Assembly: GCF_000243255.1 (NCBI RefSeq)
Contig: NZ_CM001436.1
Span: 1,638,957 to 1,702,956, forward strand
Source: Methanoplanus limicola DSM 2279
GTDB lineage: Archaea; Halobacteriota; Methanomicrobia; Methanomicrobiales; Methanomicrobiaceae
Direction of reading: 5' to 3'
Length of the DNA: 64,000 nucleotides
Below the pieces are notes generated by a model. That model made no database searches, was not told the origin of the DNA, and worked only from the letters and a program-made list of their open reading frames with translations. Below, piece by piece: positions 25,477 through 50,936 of the stretch (the first letter of the stretch is position 1; every line of letters begins with the position of its first letter). The position numbers and the translations under genes were made by a program.

Positions 25477-25486
25477 ATTACACACA

Positions 25487-27429: not shown

Positions 27430-27433
27430 CTCT

Positions 27434-31100: not shown

Positions 31101-32338
31101 TGAACTGTATCCGGGCAATATTAATAACTGCATTTATTACACTGATTATGTCATGCTCTGTCCACGGAGTTATGGCTGTAGCATCTGTTCTTCCGGAAGA
31201 TACGGACAATAACGGAGTAATAAGCGAAAATGAGATAAGCAGGGCCATATTAAATTACCTGTCAGATAAATATTCTGTAAATAACGGAACCGGTTCTCCT
31301 GATTATTCACTTGCAGATGGGGTATATATCTATAATCACTGGGACGGGATGCCAAAGACAGTCGCAGATACATCCGGGCAGGAAATTACCCTGTACAAGC
31401 CGATAAGAAAGGCTGTTATAATGAATTCTGAAATTCTTGAGACCCTCCGGTCACTTGATTATGATGATGAAAAGATAGCGGGAGTCGGGAAGTATATTCT
31501 TGAAGATGATATCTTTTTCCCAGAATATGCAGATCTTCCAAATGTCGGGAGCGTATGGTCTTCCGATACTGAGAAAATAATATCTTTGGAACCTGACTCG
31601 GTATTTATATATGCAGATTTTATGAAGGATAAATCTGATGAAATTCAGGAGAATATACAATCCCTTAACCCTGATATACGGGTTTTCCGTTTTGATTTAT
31701 TCAATCCGGAAAATTATGCAGATGAGGTCAGGTTATTATCTGTCATTGCTGACCGTGAGGAGGAAGGCGAAGAATTTGCAGAATTTTATGAAAAACAGAT
31801 GAACACAGTACAGGATATTGCAGATTTAATTCCTGAAGATGAGAAAGTCAGGGTTTATTTTGAAAGCTGGGATGATTATAAAAGCTGTGCCGAAGGGTCC
31901 GGTTATGATGAAAAGATAACAATTGCCGGTGGTAAAAATATTTTCAGTAATGCGACACCTGAATATCCGGTGGTTAACCCTGAGTCCATATTATTTGGCA
32001 GTCCGGAAATAATAGTAAAACTTACAGGCTCAGGAAAGCTTGCTTTTGGAGGTTATGCTGATGATGACAATTCTAAAACCCTTCAGGTGTATAATGATCT
32101 TAAAAGCAGAACCGGATGGAGCACACTTCCGGCAGTAAAGGATAACCGCTTTCATATAATCAATAATGACATATTTGGGGGGCCTGAGCATTTTATCGGT
32201 ATTCTTTATCTTGCAAAATGGTTCTACCCGGAGAAATTCTCAGATATAGATCCGCAGGAGATTCACCAGAAATATCTTTCTGATTTTCAGGGCCTTGACT
32301 ATGACTTAAATGAGCACGGGGTTTTTGTCTCTCCTTAA
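31100..32338 (+). CDS. BtuF/FecB-type ABC substrate-binding protein with N-terminal dockerin-like EF-hand
   Basis: 412 residues. A signal segment lies at about 5-27. An EF-hand/dockerin-type calcium loop is at residues 34-45 (DTDNNGVISENE), followed by a helix. The periplasmic-binding-protein fold at about 83-405 is class III, as in cobalamin, heme and siderophore binding proteins (YKPIRKAVIMNSEILETLRSL, PNVGSVWSSDTEKIISLEPDSVFIY). No lipobox cysteine or C-terminal helix is seen, so cell-surface retention is unclear; the dockerin-like loop may tether it to a cohesin. It is followed by a BtuC-type permease and BtuD-type ATPase, forming a complete importer, and then by cobN. The ligand is probably a metal chelate or corrinoid, not determined. 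Confidence 0.85.
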   Translation: MNCIRAILITAFITLIMSCSVHGVMAVASVLPEDTDNNGVISENEISRAILNYLSDKYSVNNGTGSPDYSLADGVYIYNHWDGMPKTVADTSGQEITLYKPIRKAVIMNSEILETLRSLDYDDEKIAGVGKYILEDDIFFPEYADLPNVGSVWSSDTEKIISLEPDSVFIYADFMKDKSDEIQENIQSLNPDIRVFRFDLFNPENYADEVRLLSVIADREEEGEEFAEFYEKQMNTVQDIADLIPEDEKVRVYFESWDDYKSCAEGSGYDEKITIAGGKNIFSNATPEYPVVNPESILFGSPEIIVKLTGSGKLAFGGYADDDNSKTLQVYNDLKSRTGWSTLPAVKDNRFHIINNDIFGGPEHFIGILYLAKWFYPEKFSDIDPQEIHQKYLSDFQGLDYDLNEHGVFVSP

Positions 32339-32359
32339 AATATCGGCAAATCTGTTATC

Positions 32360-33451
32360 ATGACGACCAATGAAGACCAATTCAACCAGAAATGCCGGGA
32401 GTTAAAAGCAAAAAAGAAGATATTTTTTTTAGTTGCTATTGCTCTGATAATATTCCTTGCCGGATATGGCATAACTATAGGCTCAGGTGATCTCTCAATT
32501 ATTGATTCATACAGGGCATTTTTAAACGGTCTTTCTGAAAGATTATCCTCTTTGATTTCCGGAACTGTTACGGGACAGCAGGGTACAGCAGAGATAGTGG
32601 TGTGGGATATCAGGCTTCATCGAATCCTTTTTGCAATAGCTGCCGGGTTTGGCCTTGCAATTGCCGGAACTGTTATGCAGGGAATACTGAGAAACCCGCT
32701 TGCAAGCCCTTTTACGCTTGGTATAGCATCTGCTGCATCATGTGGTGCTTCTGTTGCCATTGTTCTTTTTGGTAGTATTGCATTCCTGTCAGGCAGCATG
32801 TTTGTTGTAATTCTTGCCTTTCTCTTCTCAATGCTCGCATCATTTGGAATTTATGCAATGGCAAGGCAGAAAGGGCTTGATTCATCTTCAATGATACTTG
32901 CCGGAATTGCCATTATGTATCTCTTTTCTGCTGTAACTTCACTTCTTCAGTATTTTGGAACATCTGATCAGGCTGCGGCTGTTGTTTACTGGATGTTTGG
33001 GTCGCTTGACCAGACGACATGGATGAAATTAGGCATTGTCTCGGTTGTTCTTCTGATCCTTACACCGTATGTTATCTATAGAGCATGGGACCTGAATGCC
33101 CTTGCGGAAGGTGATGAAATTGCAAAGAGCATTGGTGTTCCTGTTGAGAGGTCAATGACTGTATTTATGTTCATTGCATCAGTAATTACAGCTGTAATTA
33201 TTGCTTTTACCGGAACAATCGGCTTTATAGGACTTGTTGCACCGCATATTACCAGAATGATCACCGGAAGTGATCACAGGGTACTTATCCCTGCTTCAGG
33301 ACTTGTAGGATCAGTAATTCTCCTGGGTGCCGACAATTTAAGCAGGATAATTATATATCCTTCTGTAATTCCGGTTGGGATAATGACAGCATTTCTCGGT
33401 GTCCCGTTCTTCCTTTATCTCTTTCTTAGAAGGAGTGATTCCGGATGGTAG
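32360..33451 (+). CDS. BtuC/FecD-type ABC transporter permease (importer 1)
   Basis: A 363-residue FecCD-family permease with about nine to ten hydrophobic helices. Family motifs are WDIRLHRILFAIAAGFGLAIAGTVMQGILRNPLASPFTLGI (about 75-115) and the C-terminal GTIGFIGLVAPHITRMITGSDHRVLIP, with the coupling-helix region just before it. It imports metal chelates, heme or corrinoids together with the binding protein and ATPase on either side. It lies 21 nt after the binding-protein gene and overlaps the ATPase gene by 7 nt. The second copy at 40351 is a paralogue, so the cluster carries two separate type II importers. Confidence 0.9.
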   Translation: MTTNEDQFNQKCRELKAKKKIFFLVAIALIIFLAGYGITIGSGDLSIIDSYRAFLNGLSERLSSLISGTVTGQQGTAEIVVWDIRLHRILFAIAAGFGLAIAGTVMQGILRNPLASPFTLGIASAASCGASVAIVLFGSIAFLSGSMFVVILAFLFSMLASFGIYAMARQKGLDSSSMILAGIAIMYLFSAVTSLLQYFGTSDQAAAVVYWMFGSLDQTTWMKLGIVSVVLLILTPYVIYRAWDLNALAEGDEIAKSIGVPVERSMTVFMFIASVITAVIIAFTGTIGFIGLVAPHITRMITGSDHRVLIPASGLVGSVILLGADNLSRIIIYPSVIPVGIMTAFLGVPFFLYLFLRRSDSGW

Positions 33452-34218
33452 CACTAGCTGTAAGAGATCTGTCCTTCTCATACCGGGAAAAACCTGTATT
33501 TTCCGGAATATCTTTTGAAGCGGAAAAAGGAGAGGTTTTAGGTCTTGTAGGGCCCAATGGTTCGGGTAAAACCACTCTGATTAAGTGCATTGACGGGATA
33601 TTAAAACCTGAGGGTGAGATCAGCATTTTTGGCTCTCCCATATCATCCATGGACAGAACAGATATTGCAAGACAGATTGCATATGTCCCGCAGTCACTCC
33701 CCGACGGTCTTTCATCAAGAGTTTTTGAGACCATTCTTATGGGCAGAAAGCCTCATCTGAACTGGAATATAAGTCCGGAAGATTCTGAGAAAGTTTACAG
33801 AGGGATGAAACTGCTGGGAGTTGAGGATTATGCATTCAGAAAAGTTAAGGAACTCTCCGGCGGTGAACGGCAGAGGGTTATGATTGCAAGGTCGATTGTG
33901 CAGGAGACACCTGTAATTCTGATGGATGAACCTACGAGCAATCTTGATATCCGGCACCAGATGGAAGTTATGGATACTGTAAGCAGGCTGGCAGATGAAA
34001 AGGGCCTGACCGTCATTGTCTCGGTGCATGATTTAAATCTTGCTGCACGCTACTGTGACAAAATAGTCATGCTCTCCGAAGGGTCAATGAAATGTTTCGG
34101 AACACCTGCTGATCTTTTAAAGGATGATATTATCAGAGATGTGTACGGAATTGAGGTTAAAATAAATATGGAATTTGACAGGCCGTATATTATTCCTGTA
34201 AAGCCTGTTTTAAAATAA
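33445..34218 (+). CDS. BtuD/FecE-type ABC transporter ATPase (importer 1)
   Basis: 257 residues. Walker A GPNGSGKT at 36-43, Q-loop VPQSL, signature LSGGERQR near 138-145 and Walker B VILMDEPTSNLD about 156-167. The overall sequence is that of type II importer ATPases (FecE/BtuD/HmuV). AAGGAG lies a few bases before the ATG inside the permease gene, and the 7-nt overlap implies coupling. After the ABC domain only a short regulatory tail is present, unlike the ATPase of importer 2, which carries an additional domain of about 140 residues. The cobN-like gene follows 18 nt downstream. Confidence 0.9.
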   Translation: MVALAVRDLSFSYREKPVFSGISFEAEKGEVLGLVGPNGSGKTTLIKCIDGILKPEGEISIFGSPISSMDRTDIARQIAYVPQSLPDGLSSRVFETILMGRKPHLNWNISPEDSEKVYRGMKLLGVEDYAFRKVKELSGGERQRVMIARSIVQETPVILMDEPTSNLDIRHQMEVMDTVSRLADEKGLTVIVSVHDLNLAARYCDKIVMLSEGSMKCFGTPADLLKDDIIRDVYGIEVKINMEFDRPYIIPVKPVLK

Positions 34219-34236: not shown

Positions 34237-37200
34237 ATGGTTAATATTACATTAATTTCATGGGGGAGTGAGATATCACTCCTGAAGAAGGCTGCTGAGA
34301 GAATAGACTTTAATCTGACTTCATGGAATGTTTATGAATTAAAGGCGGATGATAGTAAGGTTAGAGCGTGTATTGAATCATTTGCTGATTCTGATCTTGT
34401 TCTCATCCACCCCTCTCATGATTCTTACTGGGATGATATTATTGAAGGATTTCCAAAAGATCTTCCCGTGATCTCCTATGGTTTTTCTGACCTTTTCTGG
34501 TCGGCGTCTACAGTTCCCCTTTCTGTTGTATCTGCGGTGAGCACATATTTTCTCTACGGCGGGCTTGAGAATCTGTACAATATGCTTGCATTCTGTGCAG
34601 TAAAAGTTCTTGGGATGGATCTGCATTATGATGAACCCACAGTCACACGCTGGGAAGGCATATATCACCCCGACAGCCCTTTTATTTTTGACAGTTCTGA
34701 TGAATATTTTATGTACAGGGGAAAGGTGCATGAATATAATGTCGGAATTATTTTCCTGAGGTCCCAGTGGATCTGCGGAGATTTAAGAAGTGTGGATGCC
34801 CTAATCAGGGAGTTTGAAAAGTTCTCAAATGTTACTGCTGTCTTCTGCTTTAGCAGCAGTGATGATGATCTCGGTGCTCTTTCAGGAGAGGAATGTATAA
34901 AAAGGTATATGCCTGAAAAGCTTGACGCTTTAATTGATCTGAGATCTTTCATCCAGAGCCGGGATCGGGATGCTCTTATCAGATGCTATAAAGAGCTTAG
35001 TATTCCGGTATTTCATCCACTCACATTTTATCATGACACTGAGGAAGAATGGCACAGTTCCAGATCCGGCATGTCAGGTTCGGAGGCGGCATGGACAGTT
35101 GCCCTTCCTGAGTTTTCAGGGATGACAGAGATGATCCCTGTATCATTTGCCGAGAAAGATGCTGAATCCGGAGCTGAGACAAATCTTCGCCTCCCTTCAG
35201 AAGAGCGAATAGTCCGGTTTTCAAAACGCATTTTCAGGTGGATGAGGTTATCGAAAAAATCAAATGCAGAGAGAAAAATTGCAATTATTCTGCATAACAA
35301 ACCCTGTGCATCATCTGAAGGGACTGTTGGATCAGGTGCAAATCTTGATACCCTTGAGAGTGTATCCAATGTTCTCAGGGCACTGAAGAGGGAAGGCTAT
35401 AATGTAAGAGCGCCTGAATCAGGTGAAGATCTGATAAATGAAATTATGTCAAAGAAGGCAGTATCAGAATTCCGGTGGACATCAGTGGATGAGATCGTCA
35501 AAAAAGGTGGTGCTCTGGCCCTTATAGCTCCTGATGATTACATGCAGTTTTTTTCTGCCCTTCCTGAGAAAGTCCGGTCAGATATGATTAAAACCTGGGG
35601 CAATCCTCCGGGTGAGGAGATAGATGGTGTCCCGCCTGCAATGGTTTACAATGGAAAAATTGTTGTGAGCGGGTTGAATTTTGAAAATGCCATAGTGTGT
35701 GTTCAGCCCAAAAGAGGGTGTGCCGGTTCGCGTTGTGATGGGAAGGCCTGCAAATTACTCCATGACCCGGAGATTCCCCCGACCCACCAGTATCTTGCAA
35801 CTTACAATTACATTGGTGAAACCTTTGATGCAGATGTTATAATCCATGTCGGCACTCATGGAAATCTTGAGTTCCTTCCCGGAAAAAGCATAGGTCTTTC
35901 CGGTTCGTGCTATCCGGACATAGCAATCGGCAATATCCCGCATTTATATATCTACAATTCTGACAATCCTCCGGAAGGAACAACGGCAAAGAGGCGTGCC
36001 TGTGCAACAATTGTCAATCATATGCAGACTGTCATGGCAAACAGCGAATTATATGGCAGTTTAAAGGAGCTTGAAGATCAGATCTCCGAATATCGCCGGG
36101 CTGCTGTGACTGACAAGGCACGTGCACATGCCCTGACACATACTATAGAAGATCTCCTTGAAGAGACGGGAATCGGGTTATCCATCAATTTAAGAGGTCT
36201 GAAGTACATGGAAGCTTCCTTTGATGAGATCATTGAGGCTGCCCACAAGGTGGTATCTGAGACATATGAGACTAAAATTCCGGATGGCATGCATATATTT
36301 GGGCATCTTCCTGAAGGTGACAGAAGGACGGAGATGATTTACTCCATACTTGAATATGAAGGAGAACTGCTGGAGTTTATATATAAGGCAAAAGCGGAGA
36401 CTGGTGCTCCGGGAAATGATAATCCTGCTTCTGCCGTGGATCCTGAGATTAAAAAGGAATCTGAAGGGATTGCAAAATCTTTTATTTCATATACAATATC
36501 CAGGGAAATACCTGAAATAATTTCCAGAAATCTCTTTGGAGTTGCTCTTTCTCCGGGACTTGAACCTGAATTCAGGCTGCTTTATGAGAAAATAAATGAC
36601 ATAAATCAGAGAATTGAGAATACTGACGAGATTGGTTCGCTTCTGAACGGAATTTCCGGTGGTTTTATTGAGCCTGGTCCTTCAGGACTTGTCACAAGAG
36701 GAAATCCGGAAATTCTCCCGACAGGCAGGAATATGTACTCTCTTGATCCATACAGGGTTCCGACAAAGGCAGCCTGGAGAATAGGCAGCCGTCTTGCTGA
36801 AGAGGTCATTAACAGGTACATTAATGATAATGGGAAATATCCAGAAAATATTGCATTTTACTGGGTTTCAACTGATGTTATGTGGGGTGACGGTGAGGTA
36901 TTTTCACAGATTCTGAAACTTATAGGTGCTGAGCCGGTGTGGAAATCCGGCAAGGTAGTCTCTTTCAGGATCATTCCATATGATGAGTTGAACAGACCAA
37001 GAATTGATGTAACAATTAAGATCAGCGGAATAATGCGGGATAATTTCTACAACTGCATTGAATTTATGGATGATGCTGTAAAAGCAGTTTTAAACCTTGA
37101 TGAGCCGGATGAGATTAATTTCCTGAGAAAACATGGCAGGGAAAATCCCTCCACATCAAGGATATTCGGCAACCGCCCGGGGACCTATGGAAACGGAGTA

Positions 37201-37953
37201 AATCTGGCTGTTTATTCTTCCGCCTGGAAAGAAGAGGCGGACCTTGCAGATATTTTCCTTGAGTGGAACAGCTATTCTTACGGGAGGGATAATTTTGGAA
37301 CTCCGGCAGGAGATGATATGGTTTTAAGCCTGAAATCCGTAGATATGACTTTCAATGTTGCAATGACGGATGAATATGATCTGCTTGGGTGCTGCTGTTA
37401 TTTCGGCAATCACGGCGGGCTTACAATTGCAGCAAGGTCAGTATCACATAAGGATGTTCCTGTTTATTATGGAGATACGCGGCACCGGGATGAGGTTGAG
37501 GTGAGAACAATTGCCGATGAAATCCGGCGTGTTGTCAGGACAAAACTGTTAAATCCAAAATGGATTGACGGAATGAAGAGACATGGATATAAAGGTGCCG
37601 GGGATATTTCAAAGAGAGTAACACATGTTTACGGATGGGAAGCAACAACCGGAGAAGTGGATGATTCAATATTTGATAATATTACAGAGACATTTGTTCT
37701 TGATGAGGATAACAGGAGTTTTTTCTCGGAAAAAAATCCATGGGCACTTGAGGAGATCTCAAGAAGACTTTTAGAGGCAGAAGCAAGAAATTTATGGAAT
37801 GCAGATCCCGATGTTCTGGACCGGTTAAAAGAGGCATACATGGATATTGAAGGCGATATTGAAGACCGGATGGATGATTCCGGGGGTAATATTCAGGGTG
37901 GTTCCATAGATGTATATTCATTGAAGGAGCTTAACATCCACAGAGAAAGGTAG
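34237..37953 (+). CDS. cobN: CobN/BchH-type large chelatase subunit
   Basis: 1238 residues, close to the usual length of cobaltochelatase CobN and magnesium chelatase H. It aligns with the CobN/Mg-chelatase family along most of its length: [25 protein letters not shown] in the middle, [23 protein letters not shown] in the C-terminal half, and [18 protein letters not shown] and YGRDNFGTP further on. The large subunit binds the tetrapyrrole and the metal, while an AAA+ ChlI/ChlD motor (encoded next, at 38080) drives insertion. Methanogens make corrin by the early-cobalt route, which does not use CobN, and their nickel chelatase for F430 is the small CfbA. So the role here is open. It sits between two BtuCD-type importers, suggesting salvage or re-metallation of imported tetrapyrroles (inference). 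Confidence 0.88.
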   Translation: [1238 protein letters not shown]

Positions 37954-38079
37954 TACTTATTCATGCTCCAGTTAGCAAAATTTAAAACAATTTTTGTGCG
38001 TAGCCATTATTTTTTATTTGTGCTAATGATTAACAAATAATAACATATTTTTATTAACTCGTGTGCCAAAACTGAATTG

Positions 38080-40197
38080 ATGTCTTATCCGATAAAACGG
38101 AGAATATTACCTTTTTCAGCAATTGTGGGGCAGGAATATATGAAAAAAGCCCTGCTGTTAAATGCTGTTAATCCGGCAATAGGTGGAGTTCTTATAAGGG
38201 GAGACAAGGGAACAGCAAAATCAACGGCTGTACGTGCATTATCAGAAGTGCTTCCGGAAATTTCTGTGATGAAAAACTGCCCTTTTAACTGTAATCCGGA
38301 AAATGAAGAAGAGATGTGTGAGTCATGCCGGAAGAGGGATGGCAGAGATGATTATACCATAAGGCAGGTTAAGATTGTTAATCTCCCTCTCGGCGCTACG
38401 GAAGACCGGGTAGTTGGTACAATAGATATCGAGAAGGCAATTAAAGAAGGTACAAAAGCTGTAGAACCTGGCATTCTTGCGGAAGTAAATCGTGGCATAC
38501 TGTATATAGATGAGGTTAACCTCTTGGATGATCATGTTGCAGACATTCTTCTGGACTCTGCTGCAATGGGAGTTAATGTTGTTGAAAGGGAGGGCATTTC
38601 GCTCTCACATCCCTCCAAATTCATTCTTATAGGGACCATGAACCCTGAGGAGGGTGAATTAAGGCCACAGCTTCTTGACCGCTTTGGTCTTCAGGTAACT
38701 GTTGAGGGAATACTCAATCCAGATCTCAGGATGAACATTGTAAGGGCTGCGGAGCTTTTTGAAAGAGATCCTGAAGGATATTGTGCTTTATTCTCTGAAA
38801 TGCAGGACAAACTCCGGGAAATAATAGTTTCTGCAAAAAAGATCCTCCCTGTTACTGAAATTTCGGATGAAAAAATCAGACTTATCGTTGATACCTGTAT
38901 AAGTCTTGGAATCAAGACACACAGGGCAGAGATCACTATTATGAGAACTGCAAAGACAGTAGCCGCTCTTGACGGAAGGAAGACTGTATCTGATGAGGAT
39001 ATCAGAGAAGCCATGAAGCTTGCCCTTCCTCACAGGATGAGGAGAAAGCCATTTGAAGAGCCTGAGCTGGATGAGGAGATGCTTGATGATCTTTTTAATA
39101 ACCGGAATGATGACCATCCGGATGATGAAAAAGCCCCTCCTGAAAGCAGAACTTCCGGTTCAGAACCGGAAAAATCCGTAAATAGTGGTGATAACCGGAA
39201 AAGCGGAACAGAAGAAAAATCTGAAAATTCGGGCAATAGTGGCGGTGCTGATTCCAATAACGGGAATTCCGGGAACTCGGGAAGGGAACCTTCTGAAAAT
39301 AGCTGTGGTGACATAAGTGGTGAGGCAAACTCTTCTGAAAAAATACATCTGGCGGGAGAACCTGTGGATTCGGATAAGATTAAATATATTTCAGTAAGAG
39401 ACCGGTTAAAAAGAAGAAATTCCGGCGGTAAAAGAAGTGAGTCTTTATCTTCAACAGGCCATTACAGGTCATCAAAAAGTTCTTCTTCTGGTCTGGACCT
39501 AGCCTTTGACGCTACATTAAGGGCTGCTGCGCCATATCAGAACCAGCGCAGTAGTGCTGGTATTGCGGTGAGTATCAATAAATCGGATCTGATGGAAAAA
39601 GTCAGGGTTGGAAAAGTATCTGCTGCATGTGTTTTTGTTGTGGATGCAAGCGGATCTATGGGTGCAATGAACCGGATGGAATCTGCAAAAGGTGCTGTAA
39701 TGTCAATGCTTGGTGATTCCTACATAAACAGGGACAGGGTTGGTCTTGTGGCGTTTAAGGGCGATAAGGCAGACCTTCTTCTTCCGCTCTGTTCAAGTGT
39801 CGATCTTGCAAAAAAATCTCTTGAAGAACTCCCAACCGGGGGGAGGACGCCCCTGTCTGCCGGACTTTTTAAAGGTCTTGAAACTTTATTAAGGGAAAAA
39901 AGGAAGAACAGCAGAATAATGCCAATGCTTGTATGTATTACTGACGGCAGGTCAAACAGGTCACTCTCCGGAAATATAAAAGAGGAACTTGTAAAAGTTT
40001 CAGAAGAGATCAGAAGCAATGGCATTCACGCTGTATTTATTGACACTGAAAATTCAGAGAATAATTTTTTAAAGATGCAGATTGGTTACTGCAAAATGCT
40101 GGCCGAGCATTCGGGTGGCAGCTACTATTCACTTGCAGAACTTAGTAGGGACAGTCTGTATGATATTGCCTCTTCGGAGATAGACCTTCTTAACTGA
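38080..40197 (+). CDS. Fused ChlI-ChlD chelatase AAA+ ATPase with VWA domain
   Basis: 705 residues from the ATG at 38080 (the in-frame TTG just before is less likely). The N-terminal AAA+ (ChlI-like) domain has Walker [11 protein letters not shown] at about 40-49 and a Cys-rich insert (NCPFNC...MCESC) near 66-86 that may bind zinc or an Fe-S cluster. Walker B-like [12 protein letters not shown] follows. A Ser/Gly/Asn-rich linker at about 345-445 leads to a VWA domain with the MIDAS motif DASGS near 524 (ChlD-like). It is the motor partner of the CobN-type subunit 124 nt upstream. The I and D subunits are fused in one chain, as is common in archaea and anaerobes. ATP hydrolysis drives metal insertion into a tetrapyrrole held by CobN. 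Confidence 0.9.
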
Positions 40198-40350: not shown

Positions 40351-41325
40351 ATGAAGAAAAAAAATATTCTGATAATCCTGATTCTTCTGATAATATCAAT
40401 AGTCAGTATTATCTTCTCAATAACCCTCGGGCCGACAGAGGTAGAACTGTCCACCCTTCTGGGCATTTTTCTAAATCCTTCAGGTGCAGATCAGACTGCA
40501 AATCTGATAATACTGGACATCCGGCTGCCAAGAATACTCTCTGCATTTCTTGTAGGCTGCGGTCTGGCTGTTGCCGGTGCTGTGATGCAGGGGCTGTTTA
40601 AAAATTCAATGGCTGACCCTTATATTATAGGTACATCCTCAGGCGGTGCGCTTGGTGCTGCGATTTCAATAGTAATCTTTGCAGGTGCCGGTCTTCCGTT
40701 CTTTGCATTCGCAGGTGCAACCGGGGCGACACTTATGGTTTATGTACTTGCAACAAAAAAAGGGCGGGCTCCTGTTGAGACTCTTCTTCTCTCCGGAGTT
40801 GCATTATCTATGTTTTTCTCGGCCATACTCTCATTTCTTATGTATAATGCCGGGAAAAGTCTTCACCAGATAGTCTTCTGGCTGATGGGTGGATTCTGGA
40901 ATGTGGGGTGGACAGATGCACTTACCGGCCTGATAATTATCCTTGCATCAGTATTTCTGCTCTTCTTCTCAAGGGATTTGAATATCCTTTCCCTCGGTGA
41001 GGATGATGCCGGCACTCTTGGAGTTGATGTTGAACTGCTGAAGAAAGTTCTTCTTATTGCAAGTTCACTTGTTGCCGGAATTGCGGTTGCGATTGCGGGT
41101 GCGATAGGTTTTATCGGCCTTATTACACCACATGTTATGCGCCTCATTGTCGGGCCTGATCACCGGGTGCTTATACCTTCATCACTGTTTGCCGGAGGAT
41201 TATTCCTGCTGTGGGCTGATAATATGACAAGAACATTTTTCAATGAAATGCCGGTCGGAGTAATTACTGCATTCGTTGGAGCGCCATTCTTCCTGCTCCT
41301 GCTCAGAAAGAGGATGAAAGCATGA
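40351..41325 (+). CDS. btuC: BtuC/FecD-type ABC transporter permease (importer 2)
   Basis: A 324-residue FecCD-family permease with nine to ten helices. Motifs are LDIRLPRILSAFLVGCGLAVAGAVMQGLFKNSMADPYIIGTSSG (about 55-98) and GAIGFIGLITPHVMRLIVGPDHRVLIPSS near the end. The DPYIIGTSSGGALGA form is frequent in archaeal cobalamin permeases. It overlaps the ATPase gene by 4 nt (ATGA). Its probable binding protein is the BtuF domain of the 47782-49788 protein, because no free binding-protein gene accompanies this pair. The ATPase's halobacterial-BtuD-like C-terminal domain favours a corrinoid substrate. Confidence 0.88.
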   Translation: MKKKNILIILILLIISIVSIIFSITLGPTEVELSTLLGIFLNPSGADQTANLIILDIRLPRILSAFLVGCGLAVAGAVMQGLFKNSMADPYIIGTSSGGALGAAISIVIFAGAGLPFFAFAGATGATLMVYVLATKKGRAPVETLLLSGVALSMFFSAILSFLMYNAGKSLHQIVFWLMGGFWNVGWTDALTGLIIILASVFLLFFSRDLNILSLGEDDAGTLGVDVELLKKVLLIASSLVAGIAVAIAGAIGFIGLITPHVMRLIVGPDHRVLIPSSLFAGGLFLLWADNMTRTFFNEMPVGVITAFVGAPFFLLLLRKRMKA

Positions 41326-42542
41326 TAATTGTAGATGATATCTCTTCTGGATACGGTGGTGAGGAGGATATAATCCATGACATCTCTTTTTCATCGGGAG
41401 AAGGGGAATTTGTAGGGATTATTGGACCAAATGGTTCGGGTAAGAGTACTCTTCTTAAATCCATTGCAGGTATTTTAAACCTCTCCAAAGGAATTGTGAA
41501 TATTAATGATCTTAATATATCAAAGGTTTCGCCAAAAGAGATGGCAAAAACCCTTGGTGTTGTCCCACAGGAGACTGCAGTATCCTTTGATTATTCAGTC
41601 TTTGATATTGTGATGATGGGCCGTCATGCCTACATAGGCAGATTCAGCCAGGAATCTGCCACTGATACTGAAATTGTGAATCAGGCAATAGATAAATGCA
41701 ATATCAGACATCTTGCAGAGAGATCTGTAAAAGAGATAAGCGGTGGTGAGAGGCAGAGGGTGATTATAGCAAGGGCGCTTGCGCAGCAGCCAAAAGTGCT
41801 TCTGCTGGATGAGGCGACATCACACCTTGATATCAATCACCAGATGGAGATACTGAACCTGATAAAGGGTCTTTCCGGTGTGACAAAGATAGGAGTATTT
41901 CATGATTTAAATCTTGCATCCCAGTACTGTGACAGGTTAATTTTATTGAATAAAGGAAAAATATGCTTGTCCGGTCTGCCAAATGAAGTCATTACACAGA
42001 AAAATCTCTCGGAATTTTATGACATTAATGCAGTTGTAGCTGTAAATCCTATAACAAAGAAACCAAGGATAGTGTCCTTAATTGAATCAGGTGAAAAATC
42101 AGCTAAAAAACTTAAAATTCATATCATCTCCGGCGGAGGTTCGGGCTGTGAGATAATGTATGCCCTTTATGAATGCGGACATGAACTGACTGCCGGAATT
42201 CTCTCAATTGATGATTCGGATTATTCTGCAGCCAGATCAGTTGGGATCGAAGTGCTGTCGGTTATGCCTTTCTCTCCTCCCGATGGTGCAATACTGGCTA
42301 AACTCTCTGAAGTTATTTCACAGTCCGATGCGGTCATAGTTGCCGGCATGTGTGTCGGCGACAGTAATATTGTAAATATTGAAGCTTTATCGATGAATAA
42401 TAATATTCCTGTATATCTCTTCGGTGAATTTTCTGATTTTACTTCAGAAAAGAAACTGCCTGATACACTGGGAGCCATAGCTAACGGAATATATTATTCC
42501 GGAGATATCTCGGGGTTGTGCGCAAAAATATCATGCAAATGA
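41322..42542 (+). CDS. btuD: BtuD-type ABC ATPase with extra C-terminal nucleotide-fold domain (importer 2)
   Basis: 406 residues. The ABC domain covers about 1-250: Walker A GPNGSGKS at 35-42, signature ISGGERQR near 139-146, Walker B LLLDEATSHLD. Residues about 262-406 form an additional domain with a Rossmann-like start (KIHIISGGGSGCEIMYALYECG), then SDAVIVAGMCVGDSN and IPVYLFGEF. Similar long BtuD proteins occur in haloarchaea, where a BtuCDF cobalamin importer has been shown genetically in Halobacterium. The extension's function is unknown; nucleotide or corrinoid sensing would fit the fold (inference). An intergenic gap of 89 nt with a palindrome separates it from the surface-protein genes downstream. 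Confidence 0.87.
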   Translation: MIIVDDISSGYGGEEDIIHDISFSSGEGEFVGIIGPNGSGKSTLLKSIAGILNLSKGIVNINDLNISKVSPKEMAKTLGVVPQETAVSFDYSVFDIVMMGRHAYIGRFSQESATDTEIVNQAIDKCNIRHLAERSVKEISGGERQRVIIARALAQQPKVLLLDEATSHLDINHQMEILNLIKGLSGVTKIGVFHDLNLASQYCDRLILLNKGKICLSGLPNEVITQKNLSEFYDINAVVAVNPITKKPRIVSLIESGEKSAKKLKIHIISGGGSGCEIMYALYECGHELTAGILSIDDSDYSAARSVGIEVLSVMPFSPPDGAILAKLSEVISQSDAVIVAGMCVGDSNIVNIEALSMNNNIPVYLFGEFSDFTSEKKLPDTLGAIANGIYYSGDISGLCAKISCK

Positions 42543-42569: not shown

Positions 42570-42631
42570 TTAGGGTGAATTATATATCTTCTGAATTCCA
42601 ATATTATGAAATTAATTCCGGAGTTTATTTT

Positions 42632-45600
42632 ATGATATTTGGTACGAATACACGGACATTTAATTCAGTAATAGTATTTTTTTTAATTATTACACTATTG
42701 TCAGGGACAGTTTCAGCGTCAGACACTGATTATATGAACTCTTCTTTATGCATACAGGATACTGAATCAGTAATTTGTCCGGAAGATTTTACAGGTGATA
42801 TCCTGAATAACACCGGTGAAGAAGAGTTATATTCTGCAAATTCAGGTATTTTTGAATCTTTCAGTCCGGATTCTTCAGATACTAATCAGGTTATAAATCC
42901 GGTTGTACAGTCTGAACCAGAGAGCGATAATCTCTTTTATAATTATGAGGATAATACAGCAGATGAATGCGCCGGACCTGTAAGTGGAGAACTTTTGTGG
43001 AATACAACCCCTGTCTCCGGCGATGTTGAAACTCCGCCTGTAATTGCGGATGGCAAAGTCTTCTTCTCCACCTGGTGGACGACAAACAAAAAGGATGACT
43101 ATTACCTCTACTGCTATAACCAGAGTGACGGTATGTATCTCTGGAAGAACACACTTGCCAGCGGAGTCGGCTCTTACCTGGCAGCCGCTGCAACAGGTGG
43201 GGGCAGAGTATTTGTCAGAGGCATAAACGGAGTATTGTATGCTGTTGATATGGATACAGGGGTGACAGAATGGACAAAAACCCTTGATAATTCGCCTCAG
43301 TGGTGGAGCCAGGCAACTTCTTCTCCTGTAGTTTCAGGAGACTGTATTCTTGCAGTCTCCCAGACAACGGGAATACTAAAAAAGTTTGATTTTGAAGGAA
43401 ATGAGATTCAGACCTACAGCGGCGGAGGAACTCTTGAACACAGGAGTTCTCCGGTTGTATCCGGAGGAAATGTTTATTTCGCTGCCGGAGATTCTCAGAA
43501 ACTTTACTCTTTAAATTATGAGACCTTTGATGAGAACTGGAATTTTGTATCACCTGAAAAGATACTCTCGTCCCCTGTTATGGGCACTGATGCAGTTTAT
43601 TTCACCACTTCATCGTACCTTTATGCAGTAAATAAGAGTTCAGGTGAAGAACTCTGGAAAACTGACATCAGTTCACCAAACGGTGCAGGCACGCCTGCAT
43701 TCATGGACGGGTATCTCTATGCCGGCGAGAAAGACGGTCTGCACAAATACAATTCGGCAGACGGATCTGAGGAATGGTCTTATTCATCAGCAAGCGTTGC
43801 AGCATCTCCTGCTGTTGCAGAGAACGGTGTATATTTTGCCACCAATGAGAAAGGCGGAAAAGTAATCTGTCTGAATCCCGGTGACGGCACTTTGATCTGG
43901 GAATATGCACAGGCAGCACCTGCCGGTGGTTACTTCGCAGCATTCTGGGGTTCATCTCCGGTGATTAATGATGAAAAGCTCTATATTGGTGGTGCATATT
44001 ACAATACTCTTTACTGCTTCGGTAAAGATAATTTCAGCTGGAACGGTGCAGTTACACTTGAGGAAGGGCCGGATTTCAGATATTCACCTAAAAACAACCC
44101 TTCAGCAGAGTATGAAGTAAATGCGACGTCTGATCTTGCAGCACTGAAACAAGCATCAGAGACAGGAGGGTTTGAATTTTATACAGATGATTCGTCATAC
44201 CTTCTGCATAAGACTTTTGAGCTTACCGGAATTCAGGGGATAAACCGGACAGATGATCTTTCTTACTGCTGGTCTGAATACATCAACGGTGAGAGAAAAA
44301 CAGAAGGGCTTGCCGGTAATGTTTTAAAAGACGGGGACAATCTCCAGTTTGTCTATGGGTTCTGTGATTCAGGGAAAGGAATATATCCGGCACCGGGAGA
44401 CTCAGAAAATTCAGTCAATATTACGGTTTCTGTTCTAAAAAAACAGATCAAAGGTCCACAAACCTCCAACATCCGCTGGAGTACAGCTCCTGTCTCCGGC
44501 GATGTTGAAACTCCGCCTGTAATTGCGGATGGCAAAGTCTTCTTCTCCACTTGGTGGACGACAAACAAAAAGGATGACTATTACCTCTACTGCTATAACC
44601 AGAGTGACGGTATGTATCTCTGGAAGAACACACTTGCCAGCGGAGTCGGTTCTTACCTGGCAGCCGCTGCAACAGGTGGGGGCAGAGTATTTGTCAGAGG
44701 CATAAACGGAGTATTGTATGCCATTGATATGGGTACCGGAAAAACCAACTGGACAAAAACACTTGATAACTCACCCCGGTGGTGGAGTCAGGCAACCTCA
44801 TCTCCCGTAGTCTCAGGAAATTATCTTCTTGCAGTTTCCCAGACTACGGGAATACTGAGGAAATTTGATTTTGATGGCAATGAGGTTAAGACCTACAACG
44901 GCGGAGGAACACTGGAATACAGGAGTTCTCCTGTTGTGTCCGGCGGAAATGTCTATTTCGCTGCCGGAGATTCTCAGAAACTTTACTCTTTAAATTATGA
45001 GACCTTTGATGAGAACTGGAATTTTGTATCACCTGAAAAGATACTCTCGTCCCCTGTTATGGGCACTGATGCAGTTTATTTCACCACTTCATCGTACCTT
45101 TATGCAGTAAACAAGAGTTCAGGTGAAGAAATCTGGAAAACTGACATCAGTTCACCAAACGGTGCAGGCACGCCTGCATTCATTGACGGATATTTGTATG
45201 TCGGTGAAAAGGACGGTCTTCATAAGTACAGTTCAGAAGACGGGACTGAAGAATGGTCCTATTCATCTGCCGGCGTTGCAGCATCTCCTGCTGCTGCAGA
45301 GAACAGTGTATATTTTGCCACCAATGAAAAATCCGGCAGGGTGATCTGTTTAAGTCCTGTCAACGGAAGCAGGATATGGGAATATGCACAGGCAGAACCT
45401 GCCGGTGGTTACTTTGCGGCATTCTGGGGTTCATCTCCGGTAATTGACAATGAGATGCTCTATATCGGCGGTGCATATTACGATTCTCTCTACTGTTTCG
45501 GCCCGGAAATGCCACTTGGAGAACCACATCTGTATGCATCCCCTGAAGGCGGAAAATCACCACTTAATGTAAGTTTTTCTGCAACAGGGTGCGAAAATGT

Positions 45601-47785
45601 AAAGAAGTTTGTCCTTGATTTTGGAGATGGTTCCGGCAATCATATCTCCGGCAGTCTTTCAGGTGTTTCCGTACTGCATACGTACACAAATGTCAGTGAA
45701 TATACTGCAAAACTTACAGTATATAACAGTGATGAAACTGAATCACGCTCTGTTAGTCTTAAAATAAACGTAATCACTGCACCGGTGAATAAAACAGCCG
45801 AAAATTCTGTTTCGGCTGATGTTCCCGGTGTAAAAATTTCAGGTTCACAGTCCGGGAAACAGGATATAAAGATTAATCTCTCTGGCTGGAATGAGTCAGG
45901 CGGACTTGCAGAATATACAAAACCCGACGGGACAGGGGTGATGATTCAGACCGGAAATTATACCAGATCAGGTGATGTACTTTCAGGTGAAGTTACTTCA
46001 GTGATAATATCTTCTCCGGGAATAAACGGCAGTGAAATTAGTCCTGATGTTGGCAATGCCTCAGTGAACTTTAATTTTACAATGAGTGACTACCAGGGGA
46101 ATGCCACAGTTGAGACTAACATCTCTCCGGATGTGATGCCCGATGCAGAGAATGCTTTCTCTGTTGCATGCACAGATTCAAATCTTGTGTGTGACAGTAT
46201 TGCATATACTGTCTATTTCACAAAAACAGGATTTACAAATGAATCATCAATTTCGGGAGTAAACCTCACATTTACTGTAAAAAATACCTGGATTGACAGT
46301 CAGGGCGGGATTTCAAAGGTCAGGATAATAAGGTGGAAGGATGACGGAGAGAGTGAGATTCTGTCACCTTCTTCATATGCGACTGCCGGAAATTATACCA
46401 GAATATATGTCCGTTCCACTGGATTTTCAGTTTATGGTCTTATTTCAGCCCACGCAAAATCCAGCGGAGGCGGCGGCAGTGGAGGAGGAAGTGGCGGTGG
46501 AAGTTCGCTCACATATACTCCTGTAACTCTGACATCAGGTACATTTAATGTAACTGCTGTTAACAGCGGAAAAGTCTATGCTGTAGAAACAGGTACTGCT
46601 CTTGGTATCCTCCACGTGCAGGGAATTCCGTTTGTCGTTGATGATGACTGGTTTTCCGAATATGGTACGCTCTTTGTTAAATCAGTGCAGGGCAGGGATA
46701 ATGAAGGAAGTTCCGGCTGGATGTATCAGGTAAACGGGAATTCTCCAAGTGTTGGTGCCAATGTCTATAAATTAAGCAACGGGGATGAAGTATTATGGTA
46801 TTACAGCGAGAGCATGGAGACTGTACCTGAAGAATCGGCTCAGAAGATTGCACTTAAAGCCAGTATTTCCTCATCTTCTTCCGGCGGATCAGGCTCTTTC
46901 AGCGGAGGTAGTGCAGCTGCAACTACATCCGGGGGAAAAGTTTCTGAAGGAACCGGTTCAGTCGATGTGGTAATCGGACTGCCGGAGGATTCCTCCCTTA
47001 CTCTTGAAGGCAGCAGGATCTATTTATCAATAGATATCATTTCTGCAATATCCTCCGGAGAGGATATTGTACAGGATAAAAATACGCTGATAATTACGCG
47101 GGGCGATTTAACTCTAAAAATAAGGTTTAAGGATTATAATGTCCGTGATGGTGTAACTTCCGGTGAGATAGAATCCATACTAATGTCTACATCTCCGGTG
47201 GTCAAAGATTCCATAACCGGAGCTGAAGCTTACCTTGATATGGAGATGAACAGCATACCTGTTGACGGCCAGCTTGTTCTGTCAATACCTGATAAAATAG
47301 ACTCTGAAAATATTAACCGGATGCTGAAGAACTCAGGAACAGGAAAAATCATCGGCAATGCGGTCTATGAGCTTGATGCTGAAAAAGAGAATATTGAAAA
47401 CGGTGTGGATATTGAATCTGCGACTGTATACATGACAGTGTCAGAAGAACTTCTGAACAGTAAAGGCAGCATCTCTGAATTCAGAATAATTCATATACTG
47501 AATGATGGCAGTACCGAGATAATTACACCCGAAATCCTCAATGATGATGAGAGAGGTATGGTGACATTTAAGGGTACATCCAAAAAGGGTGTATCTTCAT
47601 TCATTCTTGCAACGATCTCATCAGAGAGTGACTCTTCTGCAATTTCCGCAGCAGAGAAAGATAATCTGCCCGGGGAAAATCAGAATCCGGAAAAATCCGG
47701 TTCATCTGTAATGCCGGTATTTGCTTTAATGTCAGTTCTTTCTGCTGCAATTATTCTGAAATATAAAAGAGGACATCATAAATGA
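42632..47785 (+). CDS. Giant surface protein: two PQQ-type beta-propellers, two DUF4430-like domains, PKD and PGF-pre-PGF-like modules
   Basis: 1717 residues from the ATG at 42632, preceded by GGAG 8 nt upstream and followed by a good signal peptide (about 10-30); the upstream in-frame GTG at 42575 lacks both. Domains in order: PQQ-like propeller 1 (about 123-466), DUF4430-like domain (467-603; ALKQASETGGFEFY, then NGERKTEGLAGNVLKDGDNLQFVYG), propeller 2 (610-962), PKD (964-1048), PGF-pre-PGF-like (1057-1275), Gly/Ser linker (1279-1293), a clear DUF4430 (1294-1395; GTALGILHV, SSGWMYQVNG, NGDEVLWYY), a second PGF-pre-PGF-like region (1440-1667) and an anchor helix (about 1690-1710) with KYKRGHHK. 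DUF4430 is the C-terminal beta-domain type of transcobalamin and intrinsic factor. The stop overlaps the next gene by 4 nt. Probably binds a ligand at the cell surface; corrinoid is inferred. Confidence 0.85.
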   Translation: MIFGTNTRTFNSVIVFFLIITLLSGTVSASDTDYMNSSLCIQDTESVICPEDFTGDILNNTGEEELYSANSGIFESFSPDSSDTNQVINPVVQSEPESDNLFYNYEDNTADECAGPVSGELLWNTTPVSGDVETPPVIADGKVFFSTWWTTNKKDDYYLYCYNQSDGMYLWKNTLASGVGSYLAAAATGGGRVFVRGINGVLYAVDMDTGVTEWTKTLDNSPQWWSQATSSPVVSGDCILAVSQTTGILKKFDFEGNEIQTYSGGGTLEHRSSPVVSGGNVYFAAGDSQKLYSLNYETFDENWNFVSPEKILSSPVMGTDAVYFTTSSYLYAVNKSSGEELWKTDISSPNGAGTPAFMDGYLYAGEKDGLHKYNSADGSEEWSYSSASVAASPAVAENGVYFATNEKGGKVICLNPGDGTLIWEYAQAAPAGGYFAAFWGSSPVINDEKLYIGGAYYNTLYCFGKDNFSWNGAVTLEEGPDFRYSPKNNPSAEYEVNATSDLAALKQASETGGFEFYTDDSSYLLHKTFELTGIQGINRTDDLSYCWSEYINGERKTEGLAGNVLKDGDNLQFVYGFCDSGKGIYPAPGDSENSVNITVSVLKKQIKGPQTSNIRWSTAPVSGDVETPPVIADGKVFFSTWWTTNKKDDYYLYCYNQSDGMYLWKNTLASGVGSYLAAAATGGGRVFVRGINGVLYAIDMGTGKTNWTKTLDNSPRWWSQATSSPVVSGNYLLAVSQTTGILRKFDFDGNEVKTYNGGGTLEYRSSPVVSGGNVYFAAGDSQKLYSLNYETFDENWNFVSPEKILSSPVMGTDAVYFTTSSYLYAVNKSSGEEIWKTDISSPNGAGTPAFIDGYLYVGEKDGLHKYSSEDGTEEWSYSSAGVAASPAAAENSVYFATNEKSGRVICLSPVNGSRIWEYAQAEPAGGYFAAFWGSSPVIDNEMLYIGGAYYDSLYCFGPEMPLGEPHLYASPEGGKSPLNVSFSATGCENVKKFVLDFGDGSGNHISGSLSGVSVLHTYTNVSEYTAKLTVYNSDETESRSVSLKINVITAPVNKTAENSVSADVPGVKISGSQSGKQDIKINLSGWNESGGLAEYTKPDGTGVMIQTGNYTRSGDVLSGEVTSVIISSPGINGSEISPDVGNASVNFNFTMSDYQGNATVETNISPDVMPDAENAFSVACTDSNLVCDSIAYTVYFTKTGFTNESSISGVNLTFTVKNTWIDSQGGISKVRIIRWKDDGESEILSPSSYATAGNYTRIYVRSTGFSVYGLISAHAKSSGGGGSGGGSGGGSSLTYTPVTLTSGTFNVTAVNSGKVYAVETGTALGILHVQGIPFVVDDDWFSEYGTLFVKSVQGRDNEGSSGWMYQVNGNSPSVGANVYKLSNGDEVLWYYSESMETVPEESAQKIALKASISSSSSGGSGSFSGGSAAATTSGGKVSEGTGSVDVVIGLPEDSSLTLEGSRIYLSIDIISAISSGEDIVQDKNTLIITRGDLTLKIRFKDYNVRDGVTSGEIESILMSTSPVVKDSITGAEAYLDMEMNSIPVDGQLVLSIPDKIDSENINRMLKNSGTGKIIGNAVYELDAEKENIENGVDIESATVYMTVSEELLNSKGSISEFRIIHILNDGSTEIITPEILNDDERGMVTFKGTSKKGVSSFILATISSESDSSAISAAEKDNLPGENQNPEKSGSSVMPVFALMSVLSAAIILKYKRGHHK
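43011..44027 (+). repeat. Intragenic repeat copy A (beta-propeller 1)
   Basis: This segment recurs 1479 bases downstream at 44490-45506. Two blocks, 43011-43242 and 43475-43704, are almost identical to their counterparts; I see two mismatches in each. The stretch between them (43243-43474) and the part after 43704 differ at many, mostly silent, positions. Confidence 0.85.
44490..45506 (+). repeat. Intragenic repeat copy B (beta-propeller 2)
   Basis: Copy of 43011-44027 in the same reading frame (offset 1479 bases, 493 codons). Near-identical blocks are 44490-44721 and 44954-45183. The other parts are clearly diverged. Such patchy identity is expected from gene conversion or recombination between two older repeats. 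Confidence 0.85.
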
Positions 47786-49788
47786 GAAAAAAATTATTAT
47801 CAATATTTTTAACCGTACTTTTGTTAGTACTGGTCTGCCCGGCAGACAGTTACCCTATGGGTCTTTCAGACCAGGAGATAACAGGATCGATAAATTACAT
47901 GAAGTCATGCCAGAAATCTGACGGCGGCTTTGGTGAATCAGACCGAGATTCAAACCCAGGTACTTCAACATGGGTTATGTTGGCTCTTTCTGCTGCCGGA
48001 GATGACCTGTCTGAATGTAAGTCCGGAGGTGTTTCTGCTATAGATTACCTGAAGTCAATTGCACCTGAGACTGTTGCGCTGGATGGTACATCAGAGACAT
48101 CAAAGATGATTCTGACTCTGATTGCTGCCGGTGAAGATCCACGCAGTTTTGAAGGAGCGGATTTTGTCTCTCTCCTGAAAAGTAAAGAGAAAGATTCCGG
48201 GCAGTACGGTGATCATATCTATACTACCAACTGGGCTGTTATGGCACTTTCAGCTGCCGGAGAAGACGTTTCAAAGTCAATACAGTGGCTTGAATCACAG
48301 CAGAATGATGACGGAGGCTTTGGGTGGACAATTGATGCTGAAAGTGACAATGATGATACATCCTCTGCTGTTATGGCCCTTTGCTCAGCAGGCAGGAGTT
48401 CATCTGATTCATCAGTCAAATCAGCGATGAAATTCTTCAGGAACAGTCAGGGTGAAGACGGTGGTTTTAATTACGGCGGATCGAGTTCATCAAATACTGC
48501 ATCTGATTCATGGGTTATACAGGCACTTATCGCCGCCGGGGAAGATCCAACCAGTTTTATAAAGAACGGCAAATCTCCGGTGGACAACCTCCTGACATAC
48601 AGAACAGATGATGGTTATTTCATGTGGACATCACTCTTAACTGACAATCCGTGCAGAATGACCTCAGCCGCAGTCCCGGCACTCCTTGGACTTCCATATC
48701 CGATAAAACATGATGACCACCTCTCAGTTGCAAAAACATCAACAGGCAGCCAGTCGGGAAGTACTCCGGCGGCTCTTTCATCAGATTCAGATTCTGCATC
48801 CGGTTCAGGACCTGCTGTATCTCCGGAGGACAGTGACAGGGTAGTGACTGTAATTGACGACTTTGGAAAGGAGATTGAAATTAAAGGTTATCCACAGAGA
48901 ATAATCTCTCTTGCTCCGGCCAACACTGAGATACTGTATGCACTTGGCCTTGGAGATAAAATTGTAGGTGTCACTGACTACTGCAATTACCCGGCAGAAG
49001 CGGTAAATGTTGAAAAAGTCGGTGGATATTCCACGCCAAATGTTGAAAAAATAGTGGCTGCAAAACCAGATCTTATTGTTGCATCGTTTGGGAATACTGA
49101 AGAGGTGGCAAATAAACTCAGGAATATGGGCTTTGTTGTGATCTCAACCAATCCTACCGATATTTCAGATGTCTTAAATGATATTACAATTATCGGAGAG
49201 GCAACCGGAACTGAATCAAAAGCTAAAGAAATCGTAAGTGATATGGAAAGCCGCATTAATTCCATACGGACAAAGGCCGCCGGAGCAGATGAACATCCGA
49301 CAGTTGCGCATATAGTCTGGTATGATCCTGTCTGGGTAAGCGGAAGCGACACCTTCCAGAACGAGATGTTTGAGATAATCAGTGCAAAGAACGCATTCCC
49401 TGAAGTTAAAGGATGGGGTACTGTAAGCCTTGAAGAGTTTGTTGTCACAAATCCGGATGTGATTGTCGTAAGTTCAGGTACCGGCATGGGTGAAGAAGGA
49501 AGGGATGTAATCTATAATTACCTCATGGAAGAATCACGATTCAAAAATATGAATGCGGTGAAGAATAACCGTGTATATGTTGTTGATGCAGATATTATTG
49601 ACCGGGGCGGGCCAAGAATTGTTGAAGGACTTGAGGAGGTTGCAGCTGATGTTTATCCTGACCTCTTCACATATACAGAAAAAAGTGAAAATAATACCTC
49701 TGAATCGGCACCTCTTGGTATATCGGTTGTAATGTCATTAATTGCAGGTCTGTCCGTTGTTTTCCTGCGGAGAAGGGAGAAAGCCTGA
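47782..49788 (+). CDS. Prenyltransferase/terpene-cyclase-like repeat domain fused to a BtuF-type binding protein, membrane-anchored
   Basis: 668 residues. A signal peptide lies at about 5-24. At about 30-315 are alpha-alpha barrel repeats of the prenyltransferase/squalene-cyclase type (QKSDGGFGES, QQNDDGGFGW, SQGEDGGFNY, each followed by a W/A-V-x-A-L helix with AAG). A Ser-rich linker follows, then a BtuF-like class III binding protein at about 349-630 (YPQRIISLAPANTEILYALGLGDKIVGVTDYCNYP, VKNNRVYVVDADIIDRGGPRIVEGLEEVA). A C-terminal helix (about 643-663) ends in RRREKA. No catalytic DxDD or QW set for cyclisation is visible, so the barrel is probably a binding module. Animal transcobalamin and intrinsic factor use the same barrel type to bind cobalamin. 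It starts 4 nt inside the DUF4430 gene and ends 1 nt into the next. Likely the binding protein for importer 2. Confidence 0.85.
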   Translation: MRKKLLSIFLTVLLLVLVCPADSYPMGLSDQEITGSINYMKSCQKSDGGFGESDRDSNPGTSTWVMLALSAAGDDLSECKSGGVSAIDYLKSIAPETVALDGTSETSKMILTLIAAGEDPRSFEGADFVSLLKSKEKDSGQYGDHIYTTNWAVMALSAAGEDVSKSIQWLESQQNDDGGFGWTIDAESDNDDTSSAVMALCSAGRSSSDSSVKSAMKFFRNSQGEDGGFNYGGSSSSNTASDSWVIQALIAAGEDPTSFIKNGKSPVDNLLTYRTDDGYFMWTSLLTDNPCRMTSAAVPALLGLPYPIKHDDHLSVAKTSTGSQSGSTPAALSSDSDSASGSGPAVSPEDSDRVVTVIDDFGKEIEIKGYPQRIISLAPANTEILYALGLGDKIVGVTDYCNYPAEAVNVEKVGGYSTPNVEKIVAAKPDLIVASFGNTEEVANKLRNMGFVVISTNPTDISDVLNDITIIGEATGTESKAKEIVSDMESRINSIRTKAAGADEHPTVAHIVWYDPVWVSGSDTFQNEMFEIISAKNAFPEVKGWGTVSLEEFVVTNPDVIVVSSGTGMGEEGRDVIYNYLMEESRFKNMNAVKNNRVYVVDADIIDRGGPRIVEGLEEVAADVYPDLFTYTEKSENNTSESAPLGISVVMSLIAGLSVVFLRRREKA

Positions 49789-50936
49789 TGGAAAAATATT
49801 CAGTTCTTTTTTTTTCTCTCCTTTTCATACTGACAATCCCTTCTGTTGCTTCTGCCGTAAATAATGCAGTCAGTGCCGATGAAATATCCTTTGAAAAGCT
49901 CTGGGAGATCATTACTGTCCCCGGCACAGCAGAAGTTTCAATATCCGGAGACGGCGGAACAGTCGCAGGTGGAGGCACGGGCGGTTTTTTCTGCTGTGAC
50001 AATAAAGGCAGTATATTATGGACAAAAGAACTTGGACTGTCAGATAATGCCGCTGTCTCAGATGATGGCAGGAAGATACTCTCCGGCGGTGTTTCACTCG
50101 ACCTCTTTGACCATGACGGAAGTTCATTATTCAGGAAAAATTACGGGTATGTCATAAGATCCACTGCAATATCTCATGACGGTAATCTTCTCTATTTTGC
50201 AACAGATAATCAGGATTTGAATATTTATAATACAACAGATAAAACAGCGGTCAGTTTTGATGCAGGATATGACCTTGATTCGGTTGCTGTATCAGAAGAC
50301 GGCAGTTATATTGCAGGCGGATCCTCAATTGGTGATCTGATATTCATGGACGATGGTGGCAGTATCATCTGGACGAGGAAATCCCATTCAGTGAAACCTG
50401 TAATTGACCTTGCTCTCTCTTCAAAGGGTGATTTTATTGTTTATACCGTTGATGACACCTTAAACGCCCTGTCACGTACAGGGAATATCCGCTGGGAGAA
50501 GTTAATTGCAGGTGCAAAAGGAGTTGCACTCTCTGCCGATGGTTCCTGCACAGCAGTTGCACATGATAACCGGATATCTGTATTTAACCGGAATGGTGAT
50601 CTGATTGCAGATATCCCGGATGTTAATGGTGTAAAGGATCTCTCATTTTCTGATGACGGTGAATATCTTGCATTCTGCACTGATGATACTTCCGGATTAT
50701 TTCAGATGGTAACCAAAAGTTCATCCGGTGATATGGGTAATAATTTCAGTTTAAAAGGTTCTGAACCATCTGATAATCTTTCAGAAGATAAGAATAAATC
50801 CGGTTTGCCGGATGGAAATAATAGCAATGAAGAAGTGACAGATAACATCAGGCAGTCGGGGAGCCCTGTAACTGCCCTGACAGGAATATTTTTATTATTG
50901 CTTATTATCGGTTACATCTCCGGCAGAAAAGATTAG
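49788..50936 (+). CDS. Anchored surface beta-propeller (WD40/PQQ-like) protein
   Basis: 382 residues. A signal peptide lies at about 4-24. Repeated beta-blades follow at about 35-315, with the recurring pattern hydrophobic-S-x-D-G-x-hydrophobic-hydrophobic-A-G-G (VSISGDGGTVAGG, VSDDGRKILSGG, VSEDGSYIAGG, LSADGSCTAVA, FSDDGEYLAFC). A Ser/Asn-rich stalk, an anchor helix (about 358-376) and SGRKD complete it. The blades resemble WD40/PQQ-like propellers of unknown ligand. The ATG overlaps the stop of the preceding gene by one base, so it belongs to the same transcript as the two DUF4430/BtuF-fusion genes and closes the cluster. It may scaffold the surface complex; there is no direct evidence. 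Confidence 0.8.
   Translation: MEKYSVLFFSLLFILTIPSVASAVNNAVSADEISFEKLWEIITVPGTAEVSISGDGGTVAGGGTGGFFCCDNKGSILWTKELGLSDNAAVSDDGRKILSGGVSLDLFDHDGSSLFRKNYGYVIRSTAISHDGNLLYFATDNQDLNIYNTTDKTAVSFDAGYDLDSVAVSEDGSYIAGGSSIGDLIFMDDGGSIIWTRKSHSVKPVIDLALSSKGDFIVYTVDDTLNALSRTGNIRWEKLIAGAKGVALSADGSCTAVAHDNRISVFNRNGDLIADIPDVNGVKDLSFSDDGEYLAFCTDDTSGLFQMVTKSSSGDMGNNFSLKGSEPSDNLSEDKNKSGLPDGNNSNEEVTDNIRQSGSPVTALTGIFLLLLIIGYISGRKD

Follow-up and report, generated by a model that had tools for sequence, protein, structure and literature searches.

Animal transcobalamin, intrinsic factor and haptocorrin are built from an alpha/alpha toroid and a C-terminal beta-grasp domain, and both of these module types are found at a locus of the archaeon Methanoplanus limicola DSM 2279 that also encodes a BtuFCD-type importer. 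The question raised by this locus is whether the two modules might together capture a corrinoid at the cell surface and pass it to the importer. The DNA studied, referred to here as the window, is a stretch of 64,000 nt (GCF_000243255.1, NZ_CM001436.1, positions 1,638,957-1,702,956, forward strand), and all of the module genes described below lie on its + strand. A sequence-only reading of the window had placed the two module types in a pair of translationally coupled, membrane-anchored surface proteins, and the ORF overlap, Pfam domains and hydrophobic termini detailed below agree with that description.

The module begins with a gene for a BtuC-type permease of the FecCD family (40351-41325; PF01032, E=4e-92), which overlaps by 4 bp the gene for a BtuD-type ATPase with a C-terminal extension (41322-42542). 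Downstream lies the gene for a large surface protein (42575-47785), for which ORF calls, Pfam and our own profiles indicated two PQQ-type beta-propellers, PKD, DUF4430 and a C-terminal anchor. Its length is 1736 aa if translation begins from the GTG at 42575 and 1717 aa if it begins from the alternative ATG at 42632. Propeller copy A (42971-43993, residues 133-473 by profile match) is followed by a weak first DUF4430 (44153-44356, residues 527-594), which was detected by our own iterated profile (E=6e-13) and scores 22.4 bits with Pfam, slightly under the cut-off. Propeller copy B (44450-45472, own profile) comes next, and the main DUF4430 that had been predicted for this protein was identified at 46598-46804 (PF14478, E=9.3e-20). 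The two propeller copies, which together span 42971-45472, share 85% of their protein sequence and 88% of their DNA sequence; this within-genome similarity is about that of orthologous copies between the two congeneric species and is compatible with either gene conversion or duplication in the recent past. The large protein ORF shares 4 bp with that of a 668-aa surface protein with a C-terminal anchor (47782-49788), in which an alpha/alpha-toroid barrel (47866-48705, residues 29-308 by profile) is fused to a BtuF-type periplasmic-binding domain of the Peripla_BP_2 family (48901-49593; PF01497, E=7e-43), as the earlier reading had supposed. After a further overlap of 1 bp, the module ends with an anchored WD40/PQQ-like beta-propeller protein of 382 aa (49788-50936; Pfam and own profile), which is likewise the last module gene in most Methanomicrobiales loci. 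Judged by eye, each of the three surface proteins has a hydrophobic N-terminus as well as a hydrophobic anchor at its C-terminus.

A comparison of the DUF4430 profile with the PDB yielded human haptocorrin as the top match (4kki, E=7e-4). The AlphaFold model of the main DUF4430 of the window is confident (pLDDT 91.6), and the nearest PDB entries found with Foldseek were transcobalamin beta-domains, haptocorrin, intrinsic factor and one bacterial DUF4430, with a transcobalamin beta-domain nearest of all (prob 1.00). These nearest entries (prob 0.95-1.00) were clearly apart from unrelated ones, with E-values of only 0.009-0.13. Model and search thus both assign this DUF4430 to the transcobalamin beta-domain type of fold. 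DUF4430 by itself is nonetheless no marker of corrinoid capture, because it also occurs in tandem-repeat proteins without a nearby barrel (loci L045 and L116). The L045 protein (8805-10955) has no barrel in its 20-kb locus and belongs to a genome with three DUF4430 copies, and the same absence of a barrel from the 20-kb locus was seen for further DUF4430 proteins, many being tandem arrays, in L044, L057, L060, L061, L075-L077 and L116. Corrinoid uptake might then proceed without any joint site, with BtuF alone or the propellers binding the ligand and with the barrel and DUF4430 serving assembly or surface attachment. Arrays of 3-6 DUF4430 copies lacking a nearby barrel fit such a generic surface domain, and surface proteins often use PKD and propeller domains as scaffolds, but exactly these two modules are recurrently linked or fused, lineage by lineage, and the same pairing of barrel and beta-domain forms the binding cleft of transcobalamin, as described by Burroughs et al. 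2007 with reference to a crystal structure (PMC1796856). Overall, we regard uptake without a joint site as unlikely.

The repeats of the second protein had been interpreted as a barrel of the terpene-cyclase/prenyltransferase type, and they do score as a toroid (PF13243, E=1e-13; PF00432, E=1.4e-11) rather than as some other fold; Pfam returned a toroid for all 23 barrels tested. The anticipated resemblance to known families was only partial, however, as the prenyltransferase and cyclase families were matched by the window barrel, whereas the animal Cobalamin_bind family (PF01122) was not and was reached by just 4 of the 23 barrels (best E=3.5e-5). Terpene cyclases and prenyltransferases are the sequence neighbors of the barrel in the PDB, and its sequence is nearer to class II terpene cyclases than to the animal carriers. 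Moreover, a DxDDT motif (DNDDT in the window, 48346-48360) is retained in 70 of 73 barrels and aligns with the class II DxDD motif of drimenyl diphosphate synthase, including D303, which is the position mutated in the deposited structures of that enzyme. Such a motif, together with the fact that class II cyclases head the Foldseek fold matches, would be expected if the barrel were itself a working, class II terpene-cyclase-like enzyme at the surface. We consider this very improbable given the predicted extracellular site, the fusion to BtuF or DUF4430 and the position within a transporter operon, and isoprenoid genes are not recurrent nearby. The DxDDT motif may instead cap a helix, contact a ligand or be left over from cyclase ancestry. 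The Foldseek query was a model of an Archaeoglobus DUF4430-barrel fusion (pLDDT 87, pTM 0.65), and its best 50 matches comprised only cyclases, prenyltransferases and TED-type proteins, so this search neither supports nor excludes a transcobalamin arrangement. A pTM of 0.65 likewise does not fix the placement of the domains, which leaves room for a barrel and a DUF4430 that do not share a site.

Among 199 genomes of Methanomicrobiales, the barrel family is present in 51, DUF4430 in 65 and both in 46, a co-occurrence with a Fisher p=4e-24 when the relatedness of the genomes is ignored. DUF4430 lies within 6 kb (<=6 kb) on the same contig at 44 of the 53 barrel loci. Several of the remaining nine are at contig ends, and in the two that were inspected (G098 and G094) a short DUF4430 gene falling under the survey threshold adjoins the barrel. 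The two genes co-occur with btuCD across this order: the 20-kb loci share a block of BtuC, BtuD, PQQ-DUF4430, barrel-BtuF and usually the last propeller, with PQQ-DUF4430 split into two genes in some loci. The linkage spans three archaeal lineages. Archaeoglobi combine DUF4430 and barrel in one chain at ~28 loci, found first by profile search and then in named genome contigs; a separate BtuF gene comes next in most of these loci, and FecCD and ATPase genes are present in many. In the ANME-1 loci seen, which are mainly from Methanophagales (L106, L107, L119, L137, L139 and L144), DUF4430, barrel and BtuF are encoded separately by three genes in direct succession. The barrel fusions are independent ones, and each gene arrangement groups by lineage in the barrel tree. 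Because the layout is conserved across lineages, an artefact or chance co-occurrence of barrel, DUF4430 and BtuFCD was rejected. It should be noted that an ANME-1-like barrel and BtuF were also present in a MAG titled Candidatus Nitrosotalea (L152), whose barrel falls with ANME-1 in the tree; this contig is probably misbinned.

The FecCD permease, ATPase and Peripla_BP_2 domain are encoded together in the window, as in a BtuFCD importer, but the binding domain differs in that it is tethered to the membrane and shares its chain with a toroid barrel, and the NCBIfam equivalog cut-offs lie above all three scores. The highest-scoring models for the permease and ATPase genes are nevertheless corrinoid/vitamin B12 models, namely BtuC (PRK09535, E=3e-100) and "corrinoid ABC transporter ATPase" (PRK09536, E=1e-95), while the BtuF domain, under the cut-off of the BtuF equivalog model, has weaker matches to IsdE, F420-0 and Fe-dicitrate models as well. 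The suggestion that BtuCD lacks a binding-protein gene of its own holds for this pair, which has no stand-alone BtuF, but it has to be qualified for the window, where a second complete BtuF/C/D-like set is encoded upstream at 31100-34218. That set is followed by two chelatase-subunit genes, one of CobN type (34237-37953) and one of ChlI/D type (38077-40197), and a similar neighborhood, with CobN/BtuD/ChlID plus barrel/DUF4430, was observed in L114. Farther away, positions 16923-30272 are occupied by clustered genes for large DUF3344/PEGA/CARDB proteins with a MacB/ABC exporter pair. An additional stand-alone BtuF gene sits beside the barrel-BtuF gene in L047, L054, L059, L069, L070, L071 and L081, and the fused BtuF is thus not always the sole binding protein. 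No Rfam RNA, cobalamin riboswitch included, was found in 30000-52000 at gathering thresholds.

What the captured ligand would be can be approached through the gene context. In four Archaeoglobi loci, although only in these four of the loci examined, a gene for the corrinoid-salvage enzyme CbiZ (E=1e-43 to 5e-48) separates btuD from the propeller-DUF4430 gene. Together with the corrinoid models for BtuC and BtuD, this makes a strong contextual case for a corrinoid ligand, though one that falls short of proof. The same architecture could conceivably serve a tetrapyrrole such as F430 or heme, a metal chelate or some other metabolite, since the BtuF and FecCD families carry heme and siderophores too and the weaker models matched by the BtuF domain (IsdE, F420-0, Fe-dicitrate) are of other specificities. 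Burroughs et al. 2007 also questioned the need for B12 uptake in B12-making archaea and suggested that something else might be scavenged (PMC1796856). Against this stand CbiZ within four operons, the corrinoid models at the top for both BtuC and BtuD and the transcobalamin fold of DUF4430, and we judge a different ligand to be quite improbable. The host genome encodes both CbiZ and the biosynthetic CbiC. On the strength of CbiC, the host probably makes corrinoids itself, so that its need for uptake is not obvious; given both genes, corrinoids would probably be taken up for salvage or remodelling.

Since both module types of the human B12 carriers are fused or linked here to a B12-type importer, the module is probably a B12-family scavenging system. 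More specifically, we find it likely that it traps corrinoids at the surface in the manner of transcobalamin and is coupled to BtuFCD, with a two-chain clamp that hands its ligand to BtuCD. According to this model, the large protein with the propellers would contribute its DUF4430, and the protein encoded next its barrel, to one transcobalamin-type receptor on the membrane's outer face, split over two chains in the window and contained in a single chain in Archaeoglobi. The receptor would capture its ligand, a cobamide or cobinamide, on the extracellular side, and the barrel-tethered BtuF domain would then take the corrinoid and dock on BtuCD for import, with the propellers providing a scaffold or extra binding surfaces. 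The domains, their folds, the conserved linkage, the independent fusions and the gene context of corrinoid metabolism are observed, whereas corrinoid as the ligand, a site formed jointly by the two modules, transfer to BtuF and the function of the propellers are inferred. On balance, we lean slightly towards the broader proposal that archaea evolved a transcobalamin-like envelope receptor, split in two anchored proteins and hard-wired to its importer via the barrel-BtuF fusion, such that transfer from trap to transporter would be direct.

Several differences set the archaeal module apart from the animal carriers. Toroid and beta-domain reside in one chain in the latter and in two membrane-anchored chains in the window; the Archaeoglobi share the one-chain form, but with the module order reversed. 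The archaeal module also adds propellers, BtuF and an ABC importer. Bacteroides BtuG/BtuH/BtuJ (PMC12751083) are comparable in that several surface binders are proposed to pass corrinoid to a transporter and a BtuGH fusion exists, but they have other folds and belong to an outer-membrane system; in the sole homology comparison with these proteins, BtuG was absent among the PDB sequence matches of the propellers. Closest in concept are the systems of Burroughs et al. 2007, who defined a transcobalamin-like SLBB clade, reported toroid and SLBB fusions in bacterial surface proteins, some with propellers, predicted B12 scavenging for them, linked transcobalamin-like SLBB proteins to CbiO/CbiQ (ECF-type) operons and described euryarchaeal members as occasional and scattered (PMC1796856). 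The general concept has consequently been known since 2007. Their importer-linked surface proteins likewise combine a toroid with a transcobalamin-like domain, but the partner there is CbiO/CbiQ, whereas the archaeal module is conserved, comprises BtuFCD and CbiZ and contains a barrel-BtuF fusion. In the available text of that paper, we found no mention of BtuF or BtuC, nor the BtuFCD linkage, the barrel-BtuF fusion or the CbiZ-containing archaeal operon, and the titles and abstracts of the DUF4430 papers that we found do not describe an archaeal barrel/BtuFCD system. As far as checked, the BtuFCD-coupled archaeal module with its barrel-BtuF fusion and CbiZ is new. If the proposed function is true, it would tie an importer operon that is widespread in archaea to the vitamin B12 carriers of animals, provide a concrete archaeal case of a transcobalamin-type clamp linked to its delivery partner, and help to explain corrinoid scavenging and remodelling by methanogens and Archaeoglobi. 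With both modules in a single chain, the Archaeoglobus version offers a direct way to test whether they share a site. A related gene order was found in the bacterium Latilactobacillus curvatus, in which our own profile recognized a diverged barrel (E=6e-22) in an LPXTG protein that is followed by a DUF4430 protein and then by an EcfT/EcfA/S-component set.
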